DNA of 64,000 nt from Faecalibacterium sp. I4-3-84 (GTDB taxonomy: Bacteria; Bacillota; Clostridia; Oscillospirales; Ruminococcaceae), in NCBI RefSeq assembly GCF_023347255.1, contig NZ_CP094466.1:1612001-1676000 (forward strand), written 5' to 3'. A program made the position numbers and the translations under genes. The notes beneath the pieces were generated by a model. The model was not told the DNA's origin and ran no database searches. It was given only the letters and a program-made list of their open reading frames with translations. Below, in pieces: positions 34,296 through 45,214 of the stretch (within the stretch, counting starts at the first letter, position 1; each line of letters begins with the position of its first letter).

Positions 34296-34395
34296 AGTAT
34301 ACAAGCAATAGTGCCTTTATGGGGTTCTCCGGTCCCATGTGGGGCATATTGCCCCGCGCAAAAGGTACCAAATTCTGAATAATGGAGGAAGAAAA

Positions 34396-37300
34396 ATGCC
34401 TAGAGCAAAGCAAACTATGGATGGCAATACCGCTGCCGCCCATGTAGCGTATGCCTACACGGACGTGGCTGCCATCTACCCCATTACCCCGTCTTCTCCG
34501 ATGGCTGACTCTGTGGACCAGTGGTCCGCAGCTGGCCAGAAGAACATCTTCGGCAATCAGGTCAAGGTCGTCGAGATGGAATCTGAGGCCGGCGCTGCTG
34601 GCGCTGTGCACGGCTCTCTGGGTGCAGGTGCTGTTACCACCACCTTCACCGCTTCTCAGGGCCTGCTGCTGATGATCCCCAACATGTACAAGATCGCTGC
34701 TGAGCAGCTGCCCTGCGTGTTCGATGTTTCTGCACGTACCGTTGCTACCCAGTCCCTGAACATCTTTGGTGATCACAGCGACGTTATGGCATGCCGTCAG
34801 ACCGGCTTTGCAATGCTGGTCGAGAGCAGCGTGCAGGAAGTCATGGATCTGTCCCCTGTCGCACATCTGTGCGCCATCGAGGGCAAGGTTCCCTTCCTGA
34901 ACTTCTTCGATGGCTTCCGTACTTCTCATGAGTACCAGAAGATCGAGAAGTGGGATTACGCCGATCTGAAGGAAATGTGCAACATGGAGGCTGTGGAGGA
35001 GTTCCGTAAGAAGGCTCTGAACCCCGAACACCCCAAGATGCGCGGCTCCCACGAGAACGGCGACGTGTTCTTCCAGCATCGTGAGGCATGCAACAGCGTT
35101 TACAACGCTCTGCCTGCTGTTGTTGAGAAGTACATGGCCAAGATCAACGCAAAGCTGGGCACCAACTACGATCTGTTCAACTACTACGGCGCACCCGATG
35201 CTGACCGTGTGATCGTGGCTATGGGCTCCATCTGCGACGTTGCTGATGAGGTCATCGACTACCTGAACGCCAAGGGCGAGAAGGTCGGTATCGTCAAGGT
35301 CCGCCTGTACCGTCCCTGGGTCTCCGCTTCCCTGCTGAAGGTCCTGCCCAAGACCGCCAAGAAGGTAGCTGTGCTGGATCGCACCAAGGAGCCCGGCTCT
35401 CTGGGCGAGCCCCTGTACCTGGATGTTGCCGCTACCCTGCGTGAGGCTGGCCTGAACGATGTCGTTCTGACTGGCGGCCGTTACGGTCTGGGCAGCAAGG
35501 ATACCCCGCCGTCCTCCATCTTTGCTCTGTTCAAGGAGCTGGAGAAGGATCAGCCCAAGGAGCGCTTCACTCTGGGTATCACCGATGATGTCACCTTCCT
35601 GTCTCTGCCGGAAGTCAAGCCCGCTCCCATCACCGCAGCTGCTGGCACCAAGGAGTGCAAGTTCTGGGGTCTGGGCGGCGACGGTACTGTCGGTGCTAAC
35701 AAGAACTCCGTCAAGATCATCGGCGACCATACCGACAAGTATGTTCAGGCATACTTCCAGTATGACTCCAAGAAGACCGGCGGCGTGACCATCAGCCATC
35801 TGCGTTTCGGCGACAAGCCCATCCGCAGCCCCTACTACATCAACCAGGCTGACTTCGTGGCCTGCCACAACCCCGCTTACATCCACATGGGCATGAAGAT
35901 GGTCCAGGATGTCAAGCCCGGCGGCGTGTTCATGATCAACTGCCAGTGGTCCGATGAGGAGCTGGGCCAGCACCTGAACGCCGAGGCAAAGAAGTATATC
36001 GCTGACAACAACATCCAGCTGTATACCATCAATGCAATCGATAAGGCTATCGAGATCGGCATGGGCAAGCGCACCAACACCATCCTGCAGTCTGCATTCT
36101 TCAAGCTGGCTGACGTCATGCCCATCGAGGATGCCGTCAACTTCATGAAGCAGGCAGCTCAGAAGAGCTACGGCAAGAAGGGCCAGGACGTCGTTGAGAT
36201 GAACTGGAAGGCTATCGATGCAGGCGTTGACGCCATCCACAAGGTGGACGTGCCCGCATCCTGGTCCAACCCCGAGGCTGATCCCGCACCCAAGGCTCTC
36301 ACCGGCCGTCCGGAGCTGGTCAAGCAGATCCGCGATGTCATGGAGCCCATTGCCCGTATGGACGGCGACAGCCTGCCTGTCTCTTCCTTCGTGGCAAATG
36401 CAAACGGCGAGTGGGAGCAGGGCGCTTCTGCATACGAGAAGCGCGGCACCGCTGTCAACGTCCCCGAGTGGGATGCTGCAAAGTGCGTTGGCTGTAACCA
36501 GTGTGCATTCGTCTGCTCTCATGCTACCATCCGTCCCTTCCAGCTGACCGCCGACGAGCTGGCAGCTGCTCCTGCACAGACCAAGAGCCGCGACAACAAG
36601 CCCGCAAACGAGTACAAGTTTGTTATGGCTGTGTCTCCTCTGGACTGCATGGGCTGCGGCGAGTGCGTCACCGTCTGCCCCACCAAGGCTATCACCATGG
36701 TGCCGCAGGACAGCCAGGCCGATCAGCAGGCAGTGTTCGACTACTGCGTGGCCAACATCTCCAAGAAGCCTTCCAAGTTTGCTGACGATACCGTCATCGG
36801 TTCTCAGTTCAACCAGCCGCTGCTGGAGTTCTCTGGCTCCTGCGCAGGCTGTGCCGAGACTTCTTACGCTCGCCTGATCACTCAGCTGTTCGGCGAGAAG
36901 ATGTACATCTCCAACGCTACCGGCTGCTCCTCCATCTGGGGCGGCACCGCTTCCATCTCTCCGTACACCGTCAACAAGGACAGCGGCCATGGTCCTGCAT
37001 GGTGCAACTCCCTGTTCGAGGATAACGCAGAGCATGGTCTGGGCCTGTACATCGGCCAGAAGACCGTCCGCGAGAACCTGATCAAGGAGATCGCAGAGGT
37101 TGCTGGTTCCGACAAGGCTTCTGCTGAGCTGAAGGCTGCCTTTGAGAAGTTCCTGGAGACCAAGAACAACACCAAGGCCAACGACGAGCCCGCAAAGGCC
37201 CTGATCGCTGAGCTGGAGAAGGCTGCTGCTGCCGGCTGCGAGAAGTCTGCAGAGATCCTGAAGAGCAAGCAGTTCATCGCCAAGAAGTCCGTCTGGATCT

Positions 37301-37941
37301 TCGGTGGTGACGGCTGGGCATACGACATCGGCTTCGGTGGTCTGGACCACGTTCTGGCTTCCGGCGAGGATGTCAACGTGATGGTCTTCGATACTGAGAT
37401 GTACTCCAACACCGGTGGACAGGCATCCAAGGCTTCCAACATTGGTGAAGTCTGCCAGTTCGCTGCTGCTGGTAAGGAAATCAGCAAGAAGAGCCTGTCC
37501 GAGATCGCTATGACCTACGGTTACATCTATGTTGCTCAGATCGCACTGGGTGCTAACCCGGCTCAGGCTGTCAAGGCCATCGCTGAGGCTGAGGCTTACC
37601 CCGGCCCGTCTCTGATCATCGGCTACGCTCCCTGCGAGCTGCACGGTGTCAAGGGCGGCATGACCAACTGCCAGAACGAGATGAAGAAGGCAGTTGAGGC
37701 CGGTTACTGGAACCTGTTCACCTTCAACCCGGCAAACAAGGCTCAGGGCAAGAATCCGTTCACCCTGACCTCCAAGGCTGTGGATAACGAGAAGTATCAG
37801 GCACTGCTGGCTAACGAGACCCGTTACAGCCGCCTGACTCGTGCATTCCCCGACCGTGCTAAGGAGCTGTTCGCACGCAACCAGGAAGTTGCAAACGACC
37901 GCTACGAGCACCTGACCCGTCTGGTCGACCTGTACAAGTAA
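34396..37941 (+). CDS. nifJ: Pyruvate:ferredoxin (flavodoxin) oxidoreductase
   Basis: Single-chain PFOR that converts pyruvate and CoA to acetyl-CoA and CO2 and reduces ferredoxin, the central step of this kind of fermentation. 1181 residues starting MPRAKQTMDGNTAAAHVAYAY behind GGAGGAAGAAAA. Two 4Fe-4S clusters sit near 695-760 (CVGCNQCAFVCSH, CMGCGECVTVCP). The thiamine diphosphate region has GDGWAYDIGFGGLDHVLASG and TEMYSNTGGQ near 975-1015. Codon choice is strongly biased towards a small set (GCT, GGT, CTG), unlike neighbours, as expected for a very highly expressed enzyme. The ferredoxin at 52.3 kb is a plausible acceptor. Confidence 0.97.
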   Translation: MPRAKQTMDGNTAAAHVAYAYTDVAAIYPITPSSPMADSVDQWSAAGQKNIFGNQVKVVEMESEAGAAGAVHGSLGAGAVTTTFTASQGLLLMIPNMYKIAAEQLPCVFDVSARTVATQSLNIFGDHSDVMACRQTGFAMLVESSVQEVMDLSPVAHLCAIEGKVPFLNFFDGFRTSHEYQKIEKWDYADLKEMCNMEAVEEFRKKALNPEHPKMRGSHENGDVFFQHREACNSVYNALPAVVEKYMAKINAKLGTNYDLFNYYGAPDADRVIVAMGSICDVADEVIDYLNAKGEKVGIVKVRLYRPWVSASLLKVLPKTAKKVAVLDRTKEPGSLGEPLYLDVAATLREAGLNDVVLTGGRYGLGSKDTPPSSIFALFKELEKDQPKERFTLGITDDVTFLSLPEVKPAPITAAAGTKECKFWGLGGDGTVGANKNSVKIIGDHTDKYVQAYFQYDSKKTGGVTISHLRFGDKPIRSPYYINQADFVACHNPAYIHMGMKMVQDVKPGGVFMINCQWSDEELGQHLNAEAKKYIADNNIQLYTINAIDKAIEIGMGKRTNTILQSAFFKLADVMPIEDAVNFMKQAAQKSYGKKGQDVVEMNWKAIDAGVDAIHKVDVPASWSNPEADPAPKALTGRPELVKQIRDVMEPIARMDGDSLPVSSFVANANGEWEQGASAYEKRGTAVNVPEWDAAKCVGCNQCAFVCSHATIRPFQLTADELAAAPAQTKSRDNKPANEYKFVMAVSPLDCMGCGECVTVCPTKAITMVPQDSQADQQAVFDYCVANISKKPSKFADDTVIGSQFNQPLLEFSGSCAGCAETSYARLITQLFGEKMYISNATGCSSIWGGTASISPYTVNKDSGHGPAWCNSLFEDNAEHGLGLYIGQKTVRENLIKEIAEVAGSDKASAELKAAFEKFLETKNNTKANDEPAKALIAELEKAAAAGCEKSAEILKSKQFIAKKSVWIFGGDGWAYDIGFGGLDHVLASGEDVNVMVFDTEMYSNTGGQASKASNIGEVCQFAAAGKEISKKSLSEIAMTYGYIYVAQIALGANPAQAVKAIAEAEAYPGPSLIIGYAPCELHGVKGGMTNCQNEMKKAVEAGYWNLFTFNPANKAQGKNPFTLTSKAVDNEKYQALLANETRYSRLTRAFPDRAKELFARNQEVANDRYEHLTRLVDLYK

Positions 37942-38159
37942 GCATTCTTCTGCGCTTTGGATGCAGATATTTGCGGCACCTTAGCCCCACAATGCAAGAG
38001 GGCGGCTGCCCCGTACCGGCGGTTACTGCGCAATGCAGCGGTACGAAGCGGAGAAATGCATCCATCCATGCAGGTGATGTGCTGAAGTACAGCATTCGCC
38101 ATACGAGTTCTATCTGATTTCACTTCCCGGGCGGTGCTTTGTTCCGTGCGAAGCACCGC

Positions 38160-38317
38160 AGCGGGATATGAGATACCAAAGCGCCCGCGAGGGTCCTTGA
38201 AAGCACACCCCGCGTGTGTCAGGAGCATAAGGTCTGCTTGCAGATACCTTGCTCCGCCTGCTGCATAAGACCTGCTTTGCAGGGATCTTGCCGCAGTAAA
38301 AACGAGCTTCGTTTTAG
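38160..38317 (+). other. Structured 3' region of nifJ with two similar hairpins
   Basis: Between the nifJ stop and its terminator are two hairpins built alike: GGAGCATAAGGTCTG/CAGATACCTTGCTCC (about 38221-38254) and CTGCTGCATAAGACCTG/CAGGGATCTTGCCGCAG (about 38259-38297). The core GCATAAG..CTGCTT..CTTGC is shared and the flanking pairs differ in a compensated way. No ORF with a ribosome site is present. Confidence 0.5.
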
Positions 38318-38355
38318 CGCCCCGTTCACCGCAAGGTGACCGGGGCGTATTTTTT
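38318..38355 (+). terminator. Terminator downstream of nifJ
   Basis: CGCCCCGTTCACC / GGTGACCGGGGCG around a GCAA tetraloop, then TATTTTTT. It lies about 375 bases after the stop, leaving a long 3' untranslated region. Confidence 0.85.
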
Positions 38356-38366
38356 GTGTAAAAGAG

Positions 38367-38406
38367 AAGCGGCTGCTGTGATCTGGCATCACAACAGCCG
38401 CTTTTA
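38367..38406. terminator. Second hairpin terminator after nifJ
   Basis: AAGCGGCTGCTGTGAT / ATCACAACAGCCGCTT with a 5-base loop, A-rich and T-rich flanks on the two sides. It could back up the first terminator. Confidence 0.65.
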
Positions 38407-38532
38407 CAGTTCCATTTTAGCATGTGAAAAAACGAAGGTCAATCAAAAAATGTTATCACAAAATCTTCCAAAAGATACCATTCCCTTTTTACAGTTTCTT
38501 CATAGCTTCTTAACGAATTCAATTGTGAAAGC

Positions 38533-38541
38533 TGTTATACT
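38533..38541 (+). promoter_or_regulatory. Extended -10 promoter of candidate sRNA copy 1
   Basis: TGTTATACT is TGn-TATACT. The conserved helix begins eight bases downstream of the -10, that is, at the expected transcription start. No good -35 is present, as is usual with an extended -10. Confidence 0.6.
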
Positions 38542-38547
38542 TTTGCC

Positions 38548-38668
38548 ATGGGAAGCGGGGCCGCAACCGCTTACCCAAGTAACATGATTCCTCCTCACAC
38601 CAAGGCAATATCCAAGCAAAACACCCTTTTTCGTGTGCCGCAACACGGAAGAGGGTGTTTTGTTTTGC
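38548..38668 (+). ncRNA. Candidate small RNA, copy 1, with anti-Shine-Dalgarno segment
   Basis: About 120 bases. The 5' helix TGGGAAGCGG / CCGCTTACCCA (one bulged A) carries the loop GGCCGCAA. An unpaired segment with ATTCCTCCTCACACCAA lies at 38587-38603. A terminator hairpin follows: AAAACACCCT / AGGGTGTTTT with inner CGTGT/ACACG, ending in a T-rich tail. The same order of parts, with compensatory changes in the helix and the same loop and C-rich segment, occurs on the minus strand at 43762-43882. It stands between the nifJ terminators and the mgtE promoter. It could instead be a leader that attenuates mgtE, but mgtE has its own strong promoter 30 bases beyond. Confidence 0.7.
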
Positions 38669-38696
38669 AAAATTCTGGTAAATCGGTGGTTTAGGG

Positions 38697-38725
38697 TTGA
38701 CCCCGTTTTTTTGCGGCGCTATAAT
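38697..38725 (+). promoter_or_regulatory. Promoter of the mgtE leader
   Basis: TTGACC (38697-38702) and TATAAT (38720-38725) with a 17-base spacer; near-consensus. The start near 38732 leaves a 5' leader of about 325 bases before mgtE. Confidence 0.85.
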
Positions 38726-38763
38726 AAAAATGAATATGAAAACTTGGAGGTGAACGCAGGAAA

Positions 38764-38859
38764 ATGGACCCGGATCATAGTCGAAGTAGAACCACCGGCG
38801 CGGTGGATCAGAAAACAAAAACAACTGCGTTTTCCCCAACCGTTCGCCTCCTTCGCTGA
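38764..38859 (+). CDS. Putative mgtE leader peptide (MDPD...)
   Basis: A 31-residue ORF starting MDPDHSRSRTTGAVDQ and ending TVRLLR just before the first leader hairpin. An eight-base Shine-Dalgarno match GGAGGTGA lies 10 bases upstream of the ATG (13 from GGAGG), which is long but is the only start in range. The Asp-Pro-Asp opening recalls the E. coli/Salmonella MgtL leader (MEPDP), where such a run destabilises ribosomes at low Mg2+. The stop codon lies inside the 5' arm of a possible antiterminator. Translation is inferred, not shown. Confidence 0.45.
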   Translation: MDPDHSRSRTTGAVDQKTKTTAFSPTVRLLR

Positions 38860-38921
38860 GTCCTGCGGAAAAGCACCGCTTCAACGGTGCATCTTTCCGC
38901 AAAACAGAGCAGAGGAAGGCG
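38845..38921 (+). promoter_or_regulatory. Possible antiterminator of the mgtE leader
   Basis: CGCCTCCTTCGCTG (38845-38858) can pair with CAGAGGAAGGCG (38910-38921), enclosing the hairpin 38864-38901 (TGCGGAAA/TTTCCGCA with inner GCACCG/CGGTGC). The 3' arm overlaps the 5' arm of the terminator at 38919, so the two structures exclude each other. Confidence 0.5.
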
Positions 38922-38984
38922 CGGCTTTGTGTGCGCAGAATGCGGCGTTTGCGGCATTCCGGCAGGCAAGGCGGCGCGTTTTTT
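38919..38984 (+). terminator. Attenuator terminator in the mgtE leader
   Basis: GCGCGGCTTTG / CAAGGCGGCGC (one mismatch, one G-T) with an inner perfect stem GAATGC/GCATTC, followed by TTTTTT. It lies 73 bases upstream of the mgtE start codon, so it would stop transcription before the gene. Confidence 0.7.
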
Positions 38985-39056
38985 GTTTCCCGATCTGCTG
39001 CGTCCTCCGGATACAGGAGCTGCTCCTGTTCCGTAAAAACTGAGGAGGTACGCCCA

Positions 39057-40634
39057 ATGGATATGGAAGAAAAAAAGCTGACGGCTGATGCTGCGGAACA
39101 GGCTCTGCCGGTGCAGGAGCTGCCTGCTGATATCCCCGCCGAGGTCCGCCAGAAGCTGGCTGAAGATCTGAACGAGGAAGCTACTGAAGACCTCAAGCAG
39201 GATATGCGCGAGGCCGAAAAAGAGGAAGCCAATGACGAAGAGGTCAGGGCCAACCCTGAGATGCTCACCAAGAGCCGCCTGCTCAAGCTGCTCATCAAGA
39301 AGCAGTACGTCAAGCTGCGCGAAGTGACCGAGGAAGAGCAGCCTGCTGACTTGGCCGAGCTGCTGGAAGAGCTGGACGAAAACAACCGCCTTGTGGTGTT
39401 CCGCCTGCTCAAAAAGGAAGTGGCCACCGAGGCCTTTGCCTATATGTCCGACGAAGCCCGCGACGATCTGGTGAACGCCTTCTCAGATGTGGAGCTTGTG
39501 GGCGCTATTGAAGAGATGAGTCTGGACGATGCCGCCGATCTGCTGGAGGATATGCCTGCAGGCGTGGTGAAGCGGGTGCTGGAGAAATCCTCCAAGCAGA
39601 CCCGTGAGAGCCTGAACAAGCTGCTGAACTACCCCGAAAGCTCTGCCGGCAGCCTGATGACCCCCGAATATGTCCGTCTGCGCGAGGATATGACCGTGGC
39701 GCAGGCCTTTGAAGCCATCCGCAAGCAGGGCGAAAACGCAGAGACCGTGTACACCTGCTACGTGGTGGAGCGCAACCGCCTGAAGGGCGTTGTTTCTGCC
39801 CGAAGCCTGCTTCTGTCAGAGCCGCATACTCCCATCAACGAGATCATGGATGATAACGTGGTCACTGTGAAAGTGACCGACGATCAGGAGTACGTGGCCC
39901 GTGAGATGCAGCGCTACGACTTTACCGCTATGCCTGTTCTGGACAACGAGGGCATGTTCGTGGGTATCATCACCATCGACGATGCAATCGACGTTCTGAC
40001 CGACGAGAGCACCGAGGATATGCAGAAGATGGCTGCTATTCTGCCGGACGACGATGCCACCACCTACTTCGGCACCAGCGTCTGGACCCACGCAAAGCAG
40101 CGCATCCCATGGCTGCTGATCCTGATGCTGTCCGCCACCTTTACCGGCATGGTCACCACCCACTATGAAGAGGCCTTTGTCAGCCTGCCGCTGCTGGTCT
40201 CCTTCATGCCCATGCTGATGGATACCGCCGGCAACTGCGGCAACCAGATCAGCACCCTGATGGTGCGTGGTCTGGCTCTGGGCGAGGTGGAACCCAGCGA
40301 CTTTTTGCAGGTGCTGGGCAAGGAGCTGCGGGTGTCTGCCATCGTGGGCGCGGTGCTGGGCATCGTGAACGGCCTGCGCATCTACCTGATGTACACCTTC
40401 CTGTTCCCCGGCCAGTACGCCAACGTGATGGGCTATGCCATCGTGGTCAGCGTTTCGCTGTTCTTCAGCGTCATTCTGGCAAAGCTGGTGGGCGGTATGC
40501 TGCCGCTGGCAGCCAAGAAGCTGGGTGCCGACCCGGCCATCATGGCTACCCCCTTCATCACCACCATCGTGGATGCCTGCAGCCTGATCCTGTATTTCCA
40601 GATCGCACAGCTGGTGTTCCACAATATGATGTAA
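39057..40634 (+). CDS. mgtE: Magnesium transporter MgtE
   Basis: Dimeric Mg2+ channel gated by cytoplasmic Mg2+. 525 residues from an ATG behind TGAGGAGG. A 75-residue acidic N-terminal extension precedes the superhelical N domain (ELLEELDENNRLVVFRLL). The CBS pair follows near 215-330 (GSLMTPEYVRLREDMTVAQAF; YDFTAMPVLDNEGMFVGIITIDDAIDVL). Five membrane segments from about 350 carry the pore motif MLMDTAGNCGNQ. The long leader with an ORF and a terminator suggests control before the gene is reached. No M-box signature is present. Confidence 0.93.
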   Translation: MDMEEKKLTADAAEQALPVQELPADIPAEVRQKLAEDLNEEATEDLKQDMREAEKEEANDEEVRANPEMLTKSRLLKLLIKKQYVKLREVTEEEQPADLAELLEELDENNRLVVFRLLKKEVATEAFAYMSDEARDDLVNAFSDVELVGAIEEMSLDDAADLLEDMPAGVVKRVLEKSSKQTRESLNKLLNYPESSAGSLMTPEYVRLREDMTVAQAFEAIRKQGENAETVYTCYVVERNRLKGVVSARSLLLSEPHTPINEIMDDNVVTVKVTDDQEYVAREMQRYDFTAMPVLDNEGMFVGIITIDDAIDVLTDESTEDMQKMAAILPDDDATTYFGTSVWTHAKQRIPWLLILMLSATFTGMVTTHYEEAFVSLPLLVSFMPMLMDTAGNCGNQISTLMVRGLALGEVEPSDFLQVLGKELRVSAIVGAVLGIVNGLRIYLMYTFLFPGQYANVMGYAIVVSVSLFFSVILAKLVGGMLPLAAKKLGADPAIMATPFITTIVDACSLILYFQIAQLVFHNMM

Positions 40635-40644
40635 ATAATAAAGC

Positions 40645-40683
40645 AATGCCGGACGGTCTTGAAGTGACTGCCCGGCATTTTTA
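40645..40683 (+). terminator. Terminator of mgtE
   Basis: AATGCCGG / CCGGCATT with a loop of about 18 bases, then TTTAT. Confidence 0.75.
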
Positions 40684-40685
40684 TA

Positions 40686-40881
40686 GGACGAACCCTCTCA
40701 GTCGTCGCTGCGCGATGCCAACTCCCTCAGTCAAAACCTGACGGTTTTGCCAGCTCCCTCAAAGAGGGAGCCTCTGGCGTGCCGCAAGCTTTGCACATTA
40801 GCCGGAAACTTTTCCGTACTGCCAAAGGCCCCATCCCAGAGGGGGCTGTCGAGCGCAGCGAGACTGGGGGAGTTTGCTCCC
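40686..40881. repeat. Dispersed hairpin repeat R-C, copy 2
   Basis: Starts AACCCTCTCAGTCGTCGC, then CTCCCTCAGTCAAAACCTGA, a GGTTTT/AAAACC pair, CTCCCTC/GAGGGAG, and ends with CATCCCAGAGGGGGCTGTC. It matches 60961-61167 closely over its 3' half. Non-coding. Confidence 0.7.
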
Positions 40882-40911
40882 GGCGCGCCCGCGAGCAGCA
40901 GCTTTTTCCGG

Positions 40912-41359
40912 TGTGGAAAACTGCATGTTTCCCCGCCTTTTCCACACAGAAAAACGGCAGCGGCCCGGTGTTGAAAACTTGGGGCCAGCCATTCCGGATT
41001 GGAGAAAAATAAATCACCGCCCAGAAACGGTTTGTAGAATGCAAAGAAAATCCTTCGACTTTCTTTTTTATAAAAGGCAGAATGCCCGCATTTTTGCCCA
41101 AAACTTACCAGAAAGCTGCGGCCTGAATTACGGTGTGTATAGGGCTGATGCCCTTTTGTTGTGGAAAACCCGGTGGAAAAAGTGGAAAACCTCATGGAAA
41201 ACTTGCCCTTTTCTTCACAAAAACGGTGGAAAACCCGGTGGAAAAAGTGAAAAGTTCATTCCAGACAGGAAACTCCATACACTTTCCGGTTGTGCTTTTG
41301 TGCCGCAAGATCCGCTTGACAGCTGTATTTTTGGGCGGAAGATGCGGCAGTTTTCCACA
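40912..41359. other. DnaA-box cluster outside oriC
   Basis: Four perfect TTTTCCACA boxes (reverse at 40912 and 41160, forward at 40938 and 41351) and four one-mismatch boxes in reverse orientation (41172, 41181, 41225, 41237), plus weaker CATGGAAAA and TTCTTCACA. Part of it is a direct repeat of GGTGGAAAACCCGGTGGAAA. It lies upstream of the rhomboid-holB promoter. Confidence 0.6.
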
Positions 41360-41372
41360 CTGTGGCATTGCC

Positions 41373-41401
41373 TTGAATGCCCCGGCCAATCATGGTACAA
41401 T
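41373..41401 (+). promoter_or_regulatory. Promoter of the rhomboid-like gene and holB
   Basis: TTGAAT (41373-41378) and TACAAT (41396-41401) with a 17-base spacer, 64 bases upstream of the start codon and next to the last DnaA box. Confidence 0.7.
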
Positions 41402-41464
41402 AACAGCAGAAAAATGCGGCAAAACTCACCGATATCGGAATACAATGCGTTGGAGGCACCCTAT

Positions 41465-42109
41465 ATGAACAATTGGCTCAACCAGCTGGAGCGCAAATAC
41501 GGCCGCTTCGGCATCCCGAATCTGACCAACATTCTGGTGGGCGGGCAGATCCTTGTGCTGGCCATCGAGCTGTTTGTCAACCAGACCGTCAGTGTCTGGC
41601 TGGCACTCAGCCGCTATTTTCTGCTGCGCGGCCAGATCTGGCGCATCATCACCTTTGCGTTCATCCCCTCTTACGGCGGCAGCATCCTCAGCGCGGTGCT
41701 GGGCATCTATTTCACATGGTTCATCGGCACAGCGCTGGAACAGGAATGGGGCGATTTCCGCTATACGGTGTATCTGCTCTCCGGGATGCTGGGCACCGTG
41801 CTGGCCTGCCTACTCACCGGCGTGACCGGCAGCACCTACTGCCTGTCCCTTTCGCTGCTGCTGGCCTTTGCCATGCTGTACCCGGAAGTACAGGTACTGC
41901 TGTTCTTTGTCATCCCCATCCGGGTGAAATACTTTGGCTTTTTTGCGGCAGCACTGTGGGTGCTCAGCTTTCTGGGCGCGCCGCTGCCGCAAAAGCTGAG
42001 CCTGCTGCTCAGCATGGCGAATGTCTGGCTGTTCTTTGGCCCGATGGCTTATCGTTCCGTCCGCGCGTGGGTACGCCGTGAGCAGTGGAAGCGGAGAAAC
42101 AGAAGGTAA
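41465..42109 (+). CDS. Rhomboid-like membrane protein, apparently without catalytic residues
   Basis: 214 residues from an ATG behind TTGGAGG, with about six membrane segments. The layout is rhomboid-like: NILVGGQILVLAIELF, then RYFLLRGQIWRIITFAFIPS (compare the WR region of rhomboids) and IYFTWFIGTALEQEWGDFRYTVYLLSGML. The GxSG serine motif is absent; the matching place reads TGVTGSTYCLS, and no paired histidine is evident. It is therefore more likely a pseudoprotease of the Der1/rhomboid superfamily than a protease. holB follows 11 bases later. Confidence 0.75.
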   Translation: MNNWLNQLERKYGRFGIPNLTNILVGGQILVLAIELFVNQTVSVWLALSRYFLLRGQIWRIITFAFIPSYGGSILSAVLGIYFTWFIGTALEQEWGDFRYTVYLLSGMLGTVLACLLTGVTGSTYCLSLSLLLAFAMLYPEVQVLLFFVIPIRVKYFGFFAAALWVLSFLGAPLPQKLSLLLSMANVWLFFGPMAYRSVRAWVRREQWKRRNRR

Positions 42110-42120
42110 GGAGAAACACC

Positions 42121-43086
42121 ATGATGCTGGACCGCATGGAGGGCAATGCAGAACTGAAAAGCAGCGTGCAGCTGATGCTGGCAGCCCGCCGCCTGACCCA
42201 CAGCGTGCTGCTGGTGGGTGAAGAGGGCCTTGGAGCCGGTTTTGCGGCCCGCTGCATTGCGGCAGATTATCTTTACCCTGCAGGCGGAGCGCCCGCTGAG
42301 GCCCTTCTGCGGGGCGAATGCTGCCGTGCTGTGGGTAAGCCTGGCGACCGCGACAGCGGCCATGTGGAGACCGGCATCGTGCGTGAAGCGATCAGCGTTG
42401 CCGGTATGGGCGCAGGCGGAAAATATCTGGTCAGTCAGGTCAAGGCTATGCGCAGCGAGATCTTCAACACCAGCCTTTCGGCCGAGGGCCGTGCCGTGCT
42501 GCTCTACCATGTGGAAAAGATGAATGAGGAATCCGCCAATGCCCTGCTGAAGGTGATGGAAGAGCCGCCGGAGGGGGTGCTGTTCCTGCTTACGGCGGAT
42601 TCGCTGGCAGGCGTGCTGCCCACCATCCGCAGCCGCTGCGTCAGCTTTGCAGTGGCTCCTGTCTCGCCGGAGCAGTGCGCCCGCTACTGCGCCGCACAGG
42701 GGGTGGACAAAAAGACGGCCACGCTGTACAGCGAACTGTTCGACGGTCACATTGGTACGGTGCTTGCCGCCGCACAGGACGAAGCCCGCACCGCGCAGGT
42801 GGAAAAGGCCCTGCAGCTGGCAAAGGCCGCTGCCGACCGTGACAGCTATGCCGCAGCCTGCCTGCTGGCCGCCTACGAAAAGGACAAGGCCGGAGCCGCC
42901 GCCCTGCTGACGGACTTCCGCGCGGTGGCCGCTGCGGGCCTGCGGCAAAGCCCCCACGCACCGGTGCAGGGCATTGCCGCCCAGCGTGCCCTGCGGCTGG
43001 CCGAAGCCGCCATCCAGCGCCTTGGCGCGCAGGTGAACCCTAAAATCGTGCTCAGCGTGTTTGCGGCAAAGTTCCGCGCGCTGTAA
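42121..43086 (+). CDS. holB: DNA polymerase III delta' subunit (HolB)
   Basis: Clamp-loader subunit. 321 residues starting MMLDRMEGNAELKSSVQLML behind AAGGAGAAACACC. The P-loop is degenerate (GEEGLGAGFAARC), as usual for delta'. SAEGRAVLLYHVEKMNEESANALLKVMEEPPEGVLFLL contains the diagnostic delta' block, and IRSRCVSF is the SRC motif. The C-terminal collar is short. In many firmicutes holB neighbours ricT; here ricT lies 10 kb away. Confidence 0.92.
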   Translation: MMLDRMEGNAELKSSVQLMLAARRLTHSVLLVGEEGLGAGFAARCIAADYLYPAGGAPAEALLRGECCRAVGKPGDRDSGHVETGIVREAISVAGMGAGGKYLVSQVKAMRSEIFNTSLSAEGRAVLLYHVEKMNEESANALLKVMEEPPEGVLFLLTADSLAGVLPTIRSRCVSFAVAPVSPEQCARYCAAQGVDKKTATLYSELFDGHIGTVLAAAQDEARTAQVEKALQLAKAAADRDSYAAACLLAAYEKDKAGAAALLTDFRAVAAAGLRQSPHAPVQGIAAQRALRLAEAAIQRLGAQVNPKIVLSVFAAKFRAL

Positions 43087-43090
43087 AAGA

Positions 43091-43126
43091 AAAATCCCGG
43101 CAGACATGTAAATCTGCCGGGATTTT
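43091..43126. terminator. Bidirectional terminator between holB and the lipoprotein gene
   Basis: AAAATCCCGGCAGA / TCTGCCGGGATTTT with an 8-base loop; serves both converging genes. Confidence 0.88.
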
Positions 43127-43136
43127 AAATTGTAAA

Positions 43137-43715
43137 TTATTTGATCGTGGGAGTGTCAAGGGGCGAACTGTAAGAGAAGGTGACCTTATTGGAGCCATCC
43201 GTGTAGGTGACATCAAAGGGGCCGACATGAGAGATGTCCACATCGTAGATAGAGCCAAGATCAACATAGAGAGGAATAACAGAGTTACCGGTATTGATCG
43301 GTACAGTTTCAAAGTATTTATATTTCTGTGTGGCACTGTCAATAACGAAGTTGTCAAGGCTGCGGGCGTTTTTGGAGATATTGCCTTTCTTAAATGTAAA
43401 AGTGATCTGGTTTTTGCTGAGAGAAAAAGAAGTATCTACACTCTGAAAACCAAGGGCGGTGTAGAGATAATAGTGACGACATCCGTCACGTTCATACACA
43501 GAATTTGATTCAAAAGTGCCGCTGAATGTGCCCATGCCAACGGAATAACTGGAAAGTCCCTTGTAATTGAGAGTGTCAATGGTGGGCAGGGTCGGGTTGC
43601 CGGGGGTTGCACCATAACCTTCGCCGCAGCCAACCAGCATACTGCCGGCGGCAGCGACCAGTGCGGCGGCACCAGTGGCCTTTAAAAAAGTACGGCGGGT
43701 GATCAGTTCAGACAT
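43137..43715 (-). CDS. Predicted Tat-exported lipoprotein, unknown function (1)
   Basis: 192 residues. The N-terminus ITRRTFLKATGAAALVAAAG carries a twin-arginine motif, and the lipobox LVGC puts the lipid on Cys30. The mature part is rich in Ser, Thr, Tyr and beta-strand patterns (ITFTFKKGNISKNARSLDNF, DVTYTDGSNKVTFSYSS) and looks like one small beta-sandwich, but I do not recognise the family. AAAGGAGAGA precedes the ATG. Two promoters and two hairpins lie upstream, one of them the candidate sRNA copy 2. A second, unrelated-looking Tat lipoprotein gene lies 370 bases further up. Confidence 0.7.
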   Translation of the reverse strand: MSELITRRTFLKATGAAALVAAAGSMLVGCGEGYGATPGNPTLPTIDTLNYKGLSSYSVGMGTFSGTFESNSVYERDGCRHYYLYTALGFQSVDTSFSLSKNQITFTFKKGNISKNARSLDNFVIDSATQKYKYFETVPINTGNSVIPLYVDLGSIYDVDISHVGPFDVTYTDGSNKVTFSYSSPLDTPTIK

Positions 43716-43761
43716 AAAAATCTCTCCTTTGATTGCAGGAAATCATAAAATACAAAAGCTG

Positions 43762-43882
43762 ATGCAAACAGAAACTCCCTCCGGCGCTTGCGGTACACCG
43801 GAGGGAGTTTCTGTTTGGGGTATTGCTTTGGTGTGAGGAGGAATCATGTGCGGAAAGACGGTTGCGGCCCCGTCTCCCCGCA
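43762..43882 (-). ncRNA. Candidate small RNA, copy 2, with anti-Shine-Dalgarno segment
   Basis: Minus-strand counterpart of 38548-38668. The 5' helix is GCGGGGAGACGG / CCGTCTTTCCGC, 12 pairs including two G-U, with the same loop GGCCGCAA. ATTCCTCCTCACACCAA follows at 43828-43844. A 19-bp perfect hairpin (43766-43784 with 43798-43816; AAACAGAAACTCCCTCCGG) with a T-rich 3' side ends it. The start coincides with the helix start. It may also act as a leader of the lipoprotein gene 47 bases beyond. Confidence 0.7.
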
Positions 43883-43888
43883 GGATAT

Positions 43889-43917
43889 AGTATACCCGAT
43901 TTTAAGTGAAAAGTCAT
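43889..43917 (-). promoter_or_regulatory. Promoter of candidate sRNA copy 2
   Basis: Minus-strand ATGACT (43912-43917) and TATACT (43889-43894) with a 17-base spacer. The -10 sits 7 bases before the conserved helix, as in copy 1. Confidence 0.65.
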
Positions 43918-43995
43918 TACATTTCTGTGAAAAAACATCCCACAATGAACTTTTTACAAAATTCCCCCAATGATAAAAACCAAACAGCGCGGTGT

Positions 43996-44067
43996 ACAAA
44001 AATTCTGGTATTCCAGAATGCGGCAGACTGTCACTTTCACTATAGTAGATAAGGTGCAAAGTGTCAA
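43996..44067 (-). ncRNA. Strong promoter followed within 40 bases by a terminator
   Basis: On the minus strand TTGACA (44062-44067) and TATAGT (44039-44044) are spaced by 17. The predicted transcript, starting near 44032, reaches the hairpin ATTCTGG/CCAGAAT (44002-44019) and TTTTT after about 35 bases. It would be a very short RNA or an attenuated start for the lipoprotein gene at 43715. Confidence 0.4.
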
Positions 44068-44087
44068 TCTGAATCGCAGTTTTTCCC

Positions 44088-44630
44088 TTATGCCTTTTCT
44101 ACTTCGCCCACCACCAGCTCACCGGTCTCGGAGGAGTAGCTGCCGGTCACCTTCTGGTGGCCGCTGGTAAAGGTGAGGCTGACAGTATGAACCTGCTTGA
44201 ACCAGCTGTTGTAGGCACTCTCGCTGATGCGGTAGATCAGCACAAAGGTCTTTTCTTCGTTCGGCTGCAATTCGTAGTCCTTCTGGGTCCACCAGCTGTC
44301 GCCGCTGGCGTTGTCCGCAAAGCCAAAGTAGATGGGCGATGCAGCAGAATGGTCGATCTCAGCCGGGAAGTTGTCGGCGGTCAGGGTGACGGCACGGCTG
44401 CTGACGTTTTTCAGGGTGACAACCACCTTGACCACATGGATGGTGCCGTATTCCTGCGTGCCAAGGATCGTGCGGTTTGCGCTTCCGCTTACGTATCCGA
44501 TGCCGTTCACAGTGCCGGGGATGTCAATGCTGCCTGTGCCGCCGCAGGCGGTCAGGGTGCCGGTGAGCCCTGCCGCAAGCAGTGCTGCGCCGGAAAGCTT
44601 AAGGAATGCGCGTCTTGAAAGATTTTTCAT
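44088..44630 (-). CDS. Predicted Tat-exported lipoprotein with DUF4352-like domain (2)
   Basis: 180 residues from an ATG behind GGAGGTAAAAAAC. The signal is NLSRRAFLKLSGAALLAAG with lipobox LTAC (Cys29). The mature part, EYGTIHVVKVVVTLKNVSSR then AVTLTADNFPAEID, resembles the DUF4352/telomere-like Ig sandwich seen in firmicute lipoproteins. An ELQPNEEKTFVLIYRISE segment fits the same fold. A longer frame upstream has no ribosome site. Function unknown. Confidence 0.75.
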   Translation of the reverse strand: MKNLSRRAFLKLSGAALLAAGLTGTLTACGGTGSIDIPGTVNGIGYVSGSANRTILGTQEYGTIHVVKVVVTLKNVSSRAVTLTADNFPAEIDHSAASPIYFGFADNASGDSWWTQKDYELQPNEEKTFVLIYRISESAYNSWFKQVHTVSLTFTSGHQKVTGSYSSETGELVVGEVEKA

Positions 44631-44670
44631 GTTTTTTACCTCCTGCCCCCAAAACAAGGGCTTTTTGTAC

Positions 44671-44699
44671 AGTATACCATGGCTAAAAACGGGGGTCAA
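44671..44699 (-). promoter_or_regulatory. Promoter of lipoprotein gene 2
   Basis: Minus-strand TTGACC (44694-44699) and TATACT (44671-44676) with a 17-base spacer. The -35 overlaps the stop codon of the carbonic anhydrase gene. Confidence 0.75.
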
Positions 44700-45214
44700 T
44701 CCATTTTGCACTGTGCTGCGTGCACTCTGCCGTGCTCCACATAGTGGGCGGCGTTGTGCAGGTTGGCCTCGGCCTGTGCGGGGCTCACCTGCTTGATGAC
44801 CCTTGCGGGCACGCCCACAGCCACCGAGTTATCCGGGATCACCATGCCCTCCGGCACCAGCGCACCCGCGCCGATGATGCAGTTTTTGCCCACGACACAG
44901 TGGTTGAGCAGGGTGGCGTGCATTCCGATCAGGCTGCCGTCCCCTACCGTGCACCCGTGCACCAGCGCACTGTGGCCCACGGTGACGCTTTTGCCCAGCA
45001 TTACAGCACCGCCCACATCACAGTGCAGCACGGCGTTATCCTGCACGTTGGAGTTTTCGCCAATGGTCAAAGTGCCGTCGTCGCCGCGCAGCACGGCCCC
45101 GTACCACACCGTGGAACCGGCTTTCAGGATCACATCTCCCTGCACGGTGGCGTTGGGCGCAACAAAAGCAGCCCCCTCGTCGCGGGGAACTTTTCCACAA
45201 AAGGACAGAAACAT
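44696..45214 (-). CDS. Gamma-type carbonic anhydrase family protein (hexapeptide repeat)
   Basis: 172 residues forming a left-handed beta helix: AFVAPNATVQGDVILKAGSTVWYGAVLRGDDG and repeated [LIV]G-x4 steps. Zinc-ligand histidines of the gamma class occur in NAVLHCDVG and VTVGHSALVHGC. It is the YrdA/PaaY type; carbonic anhydrase activity is plausible but not certain for this subgroup. Single gene with its own promoter. Confidence 0.85.
   Translation of the reverse strand: MFLSFCGKVPRDEGAAFVAPNATVQGDVILKAGSTVWYGAVLRGDDGTLTIGENSNVQDNAVLHCDVGGAVMLGKSVTVGHSALVHGCTVGDGSLIGMHATLLNHCVVGKNCIIGAGALVPEGMVIPDNSVAVGVPARVIKQVSPAQAEANLHNAAHYVEHGRVHAAQCKMD

Follow-up and report, generated by a model that had tools for sequence, protein, structure and literature searches.

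Background

Faecalibacterium and its relatives are very abundant human gut bacteria, and the literature matches listed in our searches included no study of small RNAs in them. A stretch of 64,000 nucleotides from Faecalibacterium sp. I4-3-84 (hereafter the window) contains two similar segments, each with a -10 hexamer, a 5' hairpin, a C-rich block and a terminator hairpin. A first-pass annotation had read them as two copies of a discrete small-RNA family, with a leader or attenuator of the nearby gene mgtE as the alternative. Which of these do the segments encode, and what might such an RNA do? We report here that the RNA family is, with near certainty, real and widely conserved. As far as our searches show, it is undescribed and of a known kind, the trans-acting small RNA (sRNA) with an anti-Shine-Dalgarno (anti-SD) segment. 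The reading that we favor, with moderate confidence and from sequence analysis, is a trans-acting sRNA of about 120 nt that would be induced by a two-component system of the OmpR/PhoB family and would block ribosome binding.

Layout of the two window copies

Every element was found in both copies, which span 38548-38668 on the plus strand (copy 1) and 43762-43882 on the minus strand (copy 2), and the earlier claim that they share TATACT, a helix, an identical loop and an identical block was borne out throughout. In copy 1 (plus strand), the direct repeats TTTACA, TTCATA and TTAACG, spaced by 11 bp, lie at -48, -37 and -26 from the start of the -10 hexamer (38488-38515) and form a putative site for an OmpR-family regulator. 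They are followed by an extended -10 hexamer, TATACT with TGT ahead (38536-38541), a covarying 5' hairpin (38549-38577) with the loop GGCCGCAA at 38559-38566, the near-invariant block ACATGATTCCTCCTCACACCAA (38582-38603), which is complementary to a start region made up of SD and AUG, and an intrinsic terminator (38614-38668; hairpin 38614-38665) with CCGCA in its apical loop. Copy 2 (minus strand) has the regulator repeats TTCACA and GTAATG at -37 and -26 (43915-43931), and only TGGGAT at -48. Its TATACT lies at 43889-43894, its 5' hairpin of 13 bp at 43849-43882 with the same loop at 43869-43862, its near-invariant anti-SD block, again ACATGATTCCTCCTCACACCAA, at 43828-43849, and its terminator hairpin, with CCGCAA in the loop, at 43765-43817.

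In the predicted fold of each copy, the 5' hairpin with its eight-base loop is separated from a long terminator hairpin by a stretch that is mostly open. Compared with dinucleotide shuffles, the folding energy had a z-score of -6.05 for copy 1 and -9.20 for copy 2, none of 200 shuffles being as good. The two terminators had been described as unrelated, which is true of their stems but not of their loops, as CCGCAA is common to both of these and to the 5' loop.

The exact loop-plus-block pattern occurs in this genome only in the two window copies. A third, diverged copy, in which CCTCCTTTACC replaces CCTCCTCACACC, lies outside the window (G000:C1:2209103-2209290, L071) and was found by a search with the promoter repeats alone; without the -10 hexamer these repeats are weakly specific (13 matches versus 7 for the control), so that the other matches of that search are mostly noise. 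Flanking this copy are ORFs assigned by reading as ABC-permease-like and penicillin-binding-protein-like, and a similar copy is present in another genome (G006, L123). The third copy, the promoter repeats and the loop common to both hairpins are additions to the first-pass annotation.

Genomic context

Downstream of copy 1, on the same strand and about 390 bases past the sRNA terminator, lies mgtE (Pfam MgtE), and mgtE also stands beside copies in several Faecalibacterium genomes, an arrangement from which a cis-acting leader or attenuator of that gene could be argued. However, the terminator ahead of mgtE is a strong one, the mgtE neighbor cluster is restricted to Faecalibacterium loci, and mgtE is not beside the third copy. 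Outside Faecalibacterium, a variety of genes is found downstream, frequently in convergent orientation. Flanking genes in general differ between genera and occur in either orientation, which on balance argues against a leader. Domains that recur among them are NERD, biotin-ligase and calcineurin-like phosphoesterase, each confirmed by Pfam in one example, in a neighbor clustering whose largest clusters are partly impure. The RNA thus holds no constant position ahead of mgtE, and we regard the leader reading as very improbable. Having its own promoter, its own terminator and no fixed neighbor, the RNA appears from its sequence to be a discrete unit, in agreement with the free-standing transcript that the first-pass annotation had deduced from promoter, body and terminator.

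Copy 2 is situated between two small ORFs on the minus strand (43137-43715 and 44088-44711) that resemble lipoproteins with twin-arginine-type (Tat) signals, TRRTFLK and SRRAFLK, and have no Pfam family. One such ORF, on the same strand, starts about 50 bases past the copy 2 terminator, a distance that fits a local effect which copy 2 may have on it. We also observed that, besides these Tat-type signals next to copy 2, tatA has the same promoter repeats as the sRNA (see below). Elsewhere in the window, a terminator-like hairpin at 38318-38352 (+), CACC-GCAA-GGTG, looks like the sRNA loop; it follows a long ORF (34339-37941) that was assigned by reading as pyruvate-ferredoxin oxidoreductase-like.

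Distribution and novelty of the family

The exact loop-plus-block pattern was present, mostly twice, in 27 of 31 genomes of the genus (our own included), and the reversed-pattern control in none of the 31; paired copies lie 2-7 kb apart in many of the 27. Of the 39 distinct genus copies, 26 went into a covariance model (R2). Run on 396 genomes of the family, it found matches in 58, which belong to 16 of 126 genera, with one match per matched genome outside the genus. One of these matches (G068, L135; E 0.006) is doubtful, being without stem and loop, and we count it as chance. Counts over the 58 model-found copies, given below, refer to 58 of 60 model rows, L094 and L096 having been left out with the same score as L095. 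A genome collection of 84,980 species, scanned for an exact 21-mer, yielded 84 stretches, found only in Faecalibacterium, Gemmiger, Subdoligranulum, Fournierella, Anaerofilum, Pygmaiobacter, Ruthenibacterium and unnamed Oscillospiraceae, Ruminococcaceae and Clostridia, a kinship that agrees with a Faecalibacterium-type source of the window. Viral contigs gave no match to the RNA.

Scanned at gathering thresholds against Rfam 15, the window and 20 loci of relatives showed no match other than tRNAs and a single Moco riboswitch, all elsewhere than the RNA, and the 18 matches of a permissive scan of 37500-44500 were all below gathering. Membership of any Rfam 15 family was rejected, as no score over the RNA exceeded gathering. 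Judged by title and start of abstract, the literature matches listed contained no description of this RNA, which might have an unnamed entry in the supplementary tables of PMC8040213.

Covariation of the 5' helix

In the family alignment (53 distinct rows), all 11 pairs of the 5' helix show changes on both sides with pairing kept. The covariation score of the helix was 0.517, versus 0.194 for shuffles and at most 0.098 for slid controls, and pairing cells amounted to 86.3%, versus 65.2% and at most 57.7%, respectively, in an alignment that was fitted to the structure of the model and hence leans towards that structure. A genus alignment made with MAFFT gave 84.5% paired versus 72.9%, and RNAalifold on a MAFFT alignment (A2) independently predicted the same helix, with nine pairs. 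These pair counts, which served as the covariation test, and the covariance-model search over relatives together uphold what the first-pass annotation had proposed, a discrete small-RNA family with a covarying 5' helix, a fixed loop and an anti-SD segment.

A loop shared by the two hairpins

As judged by a folding program, CCGCA recurs in the apical loop of the terminator, as in the 5' loop, in 80 of 97 non-redundant sRNA copies, a set that, like the 75 promoters discussed below, was picked by a pattern requiring CATGATTCCTCCT and a GCCGCA or TCCGCA loop, so that invariance at those letters is by construction. Counts over the 58 model-found copies are free of this bias; 47 of them have CCGCA within 60 bases past the matched part. 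When one hairpin scanner was applied to both sets, CCGCA was present in 43 of the 63 sRNA terminators that it recognized among the 97 copies, versus 6 of 170 other terminator-like hairpins from the window and eight Faecalibacterium stretches, sequences in which it recognized only one of two sRNA terminators. Most copies without CCGCA in the terminator loop come from genera further removed, Pygmaiobacter and Ruthenibacterium among them.

Two hairpins with one common loop suggest a binding partner or a repeated seed. The recurrence of this loop on unrelated stems lends weight to a different reading of the molecule, a protein-binding or sponge RNA in which the twin CCGCA loops would dock an RNA-binding protein, the invariant block would be part of the protein site or be held open for it, and the complementarity to SDs would be incidental. 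Against it stand the frequent absence of CCGCA from the terminator loop in the more distant genera and the lack of a candidate protein; the block itself, to which we now turn, bears on it in both directions.

The near-invariant block and its possible targets

The block CATGATTCCTCCT is present in 57 of the 58 model-found copies, and its 20-base version ATGATTCCTCCTCACACCAA in 51. It includes CCUCCUC, lies between the two hairpins and is exactly complementary to GGTGTGAGGAGGAATCATG, a full start region. In the minimum-energy folds, the block is weakly paired in copy 1 and unpaired, first base excepted, in copy 2; in the centroid fold of copy 1 it is unpaired. The CCUCC core is complementary to the commonest bacterial SD.

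A peptide-coding reading of the conserved AUG AUU CCU CCU CAC ACC was rejected, as the frame is not kept and all codon positions are near-invariant. From this AUG to the next conserved motif, 56 copies are distributed 34/11/11 over the three frames, with drift directly past the block in 22 of 56. An in-frame stop occurs within 20 codons in 15 of 57 copies, and no SD precedes the AUG in the two window copies.

At up to three mismatches, GGTGTGAGGAGGAATCATG was found in our own genome only in the two sRNA copies, with no perfect antisense target, and GTGAGGAGGAAT at up to one mismatch gave 53 matches in five genomes (seven of them sRNA genes) versus 38 for the reversed-pattern control. These scans of our own genome and of the five genomes revealed no mRNA with conserved extended complementarity to the block. 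For 46 start regions in the window, pairing with the block was predicted at -11.5, versus -9.7 for shuffled blocks (sd 1.0), a modest gain, and 12 of the 46 start regions paired at or below -14 versus 27 of 230 coding stretches. One of the best predicted pairings (-22.0) is with the start region of the ORF at 44088-44711 (-), beside copy 2. By eye, the mRNA of the candidate regulator (see below) in G002 could form 11 perfect pairs with the block at its SD. Feedback onto the regulator mRNA was nevertheless rejected, as such pairing is not kept across five species, for which the duplex energies are -23.7, -17.2, -15.7, -11.0 and -10.8. As a separate observation, TTGAGGAGGAATCATGAAAAAACGATTTATGTAA in another genome (L319, G050:C1:898798, -) matches the complement of the sRNA block over 15 bases; it lies at a start codon, and the frame opened there has only six codons.

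Near-invariance across the whole 22 nt exceeds the needs of SD pairing, and such strict conservation may leave room for a protein partner; together with the failure of the scans above to find a cognate mRNA, it speaks for the protein-binding or sponge reading. On the other hand, the CCUCC core is exposed and matches the prevailing SD, and start regions pair slightly better than shuffles do. Taken together, we judge a protein-binding or sponge RNA to be possible but rather unlikely. Our analysis suggests occlusion of the SDs of several mRNAs through short seeds as the likeliest mode of action.

Promoter repeats and the genes that share them

In 75 non-redundant promoters, the mean match to TTHAYA was 0.82, 0.90 and 0.76 at -48, -37 and -26 from the start of the -10 hexamer, versus 0.31-0.59 at other offsets, the -10 having been assigned automatically and about a dozen rows that are visibly out of register having been kept in the means. 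Three direct repeats one helical turn apart correspond, as far as layout can tell, to a site of the OmpR/PhoB family. Searching 24 genomes for the repeats plus the -10 hexamer gave 56 matches versus 3 for the reversed pattern. Of the 56, 27 are sRNA promoters; every one of the 24 genomes contributes one or more, although the pattern misses copies 2 and 3 of our own genome. We regard the regulatory site as well supported. A two-repeat form without the -10 was not specific (13 versus 13 matches in our own genome and 9 versus 9 in G248).

We read 24 of the 29 non-sRNA matches, leaving out G030, G344:2760634, G017:C16, G000:1883442 and G071:C35. In four of the Faecalibacterium genomes read, the gene behind the repeats and -10 is tatA, Pfam having been run for the G000 protein alone. 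A response regulator of the OmpR family takes that place in G006, G017 and G084, and HSP20 genes do so in two genera. In G248 the gene encodes a Bax1-I membrane protein, and in G344 a pyridine nucleotide-disulfide oxidoreductase. The remaining matches read were lipoprotein-like, TetR-like or unassigned, again by reading, and many of the 29 are without a clear common theme. The G030 match consists of the same 54 letters as the tatA match of G000.

Two other kinds of repeat came to light in these searches. Repeats of the TTTCATAACACC type are arrayed between two genes of our own genome (L062, G000:C1:475786, about 1495-1620) and may be a further regulator site or a repeat element. In G145, which was included without a check for presence of the sRNA, the TTTACANNNTGTTCAYAG pattern gave about 18 near-copies that have no obvious in-register -10 and look unrelated; these near-identical, scattered TTTACANTTTGTTCACAW sequences (L237, L243, L249, L255, L261 and L263-L275), mostly with GTT ahead, could be a repeat or an operator.

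A candidate regulator

Two-component systems are often autoregulated, and for that reason the response regulator that has the repeats in its own promoter would be the natural candidate for the activator. In the loci read, the next gene after the regulator is of kinase size, and that of G006 encodes a HAMP-HisKA kinase (Pfam). The regulator promoters of G002 and G016 contain related repeats, seen by eye and below threshold; in our own genome, the regulator gene was not found in two 20-kb stretches beside tatA. The best NCBIfam model for the candidate was PhoB (TIGR02154), at 219.0 and 220.5 bits. Both scores are below the cut-off of 296.2, and identity as a PhoB equivalog was rejected. Among proteins of solved structure, RegX3 and PhoP of mycobacteria come closest to it. 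With a PhoB score below the cut-off and these relatives, the candidate cannot be named.

This resemblance raises the question of whether the same RNA might be activated by the phosphate regulator PhoP/PhoB and act in the phosphate-starvation response. PHO boxes are defined as 11-nt direct repeats (PMC4415409), and the repeats described here have the same spacing. In addition, the Streptomyces sequence GTTCACC resembles GTTCACA here, and TTTAC[AC] repeats with 11-bp spacing are present in the pstS promoters of several relatives. However, these pstS repeats are TTTACC-like and in a different register to the -10, and in some genomes they are no better than shuffles, 35 of 100 (L291) and 44 of 100 (L286) shuffles being as good. 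The regulator, for which PhoB is the nearest model, falls short of that model's cut-off, and the 24 of 29 non-sRNA matches read, with tatA, HSP20 and Bax1-I among them, included no recognizable pst or phosphatase gene. We therefore consider a phosphate regulator unlikely as the activator.

Proposed mode of action

In the anti-SD reading that we prefer, a response regulator of the OmpR/PhoB family would switch the sRNA gene on. The activator would most likely come from the regulator-kinase pair that has the repeats in its own promoter in several relatives, and a regulon with tatA, HSP20 and Bax1-I would be of the envelope or protein-quality stress type. The CCUCCUC block would then base-pair with the SD regions of selected mRNAs and exclude ribosomes, and the two CCGCA loops might stabilize the RNA, bind a protein or add specificity. 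As a segment complementary to ribosome-binding sites is combined with a promoter that appears to answer to a two-component system, the sRNA probably turns down the synthesis of certain proteins. A bolder version, which we hold to be improbable, would make the RNA a mobile copy of the ribosome's own anti-SD: two hairpins with the same loop would hold out one invariant strip whose complement is an entire start region, from the SD through the spacer to the AUG, and the RNA would be released under envelope stress as a broad brake on translation, its loops gripped by a dedicated protein.

The family is marked by a strong structural signature. Its predicted activator, a two-component system, comes with a set of promoters that share the site, and the RNA itself contains a precisely defined target for mutation. 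This would bring direct tests of an anti-SD sRNA network in gut Clostridia within reach.

Comparison with known systems

OmrA/OmrB and other enterobacterial envelope-stress sRNAs occur as close sibling copies, are induced through the OmpR family, and act on envelope and regulator mRNAs. By description, the Faecalibacterium RNA resembles them in its sibling copies and its predicted OmpR-family induction, Rfam scans having served as the sequence comparison, but differs in that no conserved target was found for it. In Firmicutes, RsaE/RoxS and FsrA direct a C-rich single-stranded seed against G-rich SDs and end in a Rho-independent terminator. The C-rich seed and the terminator are shared with the present RNA, whereas the seed itself and the regulators differ, and these families gave no Rfam match here.

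A further close parallel is the NfeR1/alpha-r14 family of rhizobia (PMC10746234, PMC3927594). NfeR1 is a product of Alphaproteobacteria rather than Clostridia, and its activator is LsrB and its repressor NtrC, where an OmpR-type activator site is predicted for the Faecalibacterium RNA. It contains three hairpins, each with CCUCCUCCC in unpaired regions, whereas the present RNA has CCGCA in the loops of its two hairpins and CCUCCUC in a single linear block, and membership in the alpha-r14/NfeR1 family was rejected on these grounds. Like the RNA described here, NfeR1/alpha-r14 is a free-standing sRNA with an ultraconserved, unpaired anti-SD motif of the CCUCC type, and the sequence of its stems is free to diverge. 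Both are connected, here by prediction, with a two-component system, and both are predicted to pair at numerous translation starts. Occlusion of an SD, the mode of action that we consider likeliest for the Faecalibacterium RNA, is reported for NfeR1 and ntrB (PMC10746234).
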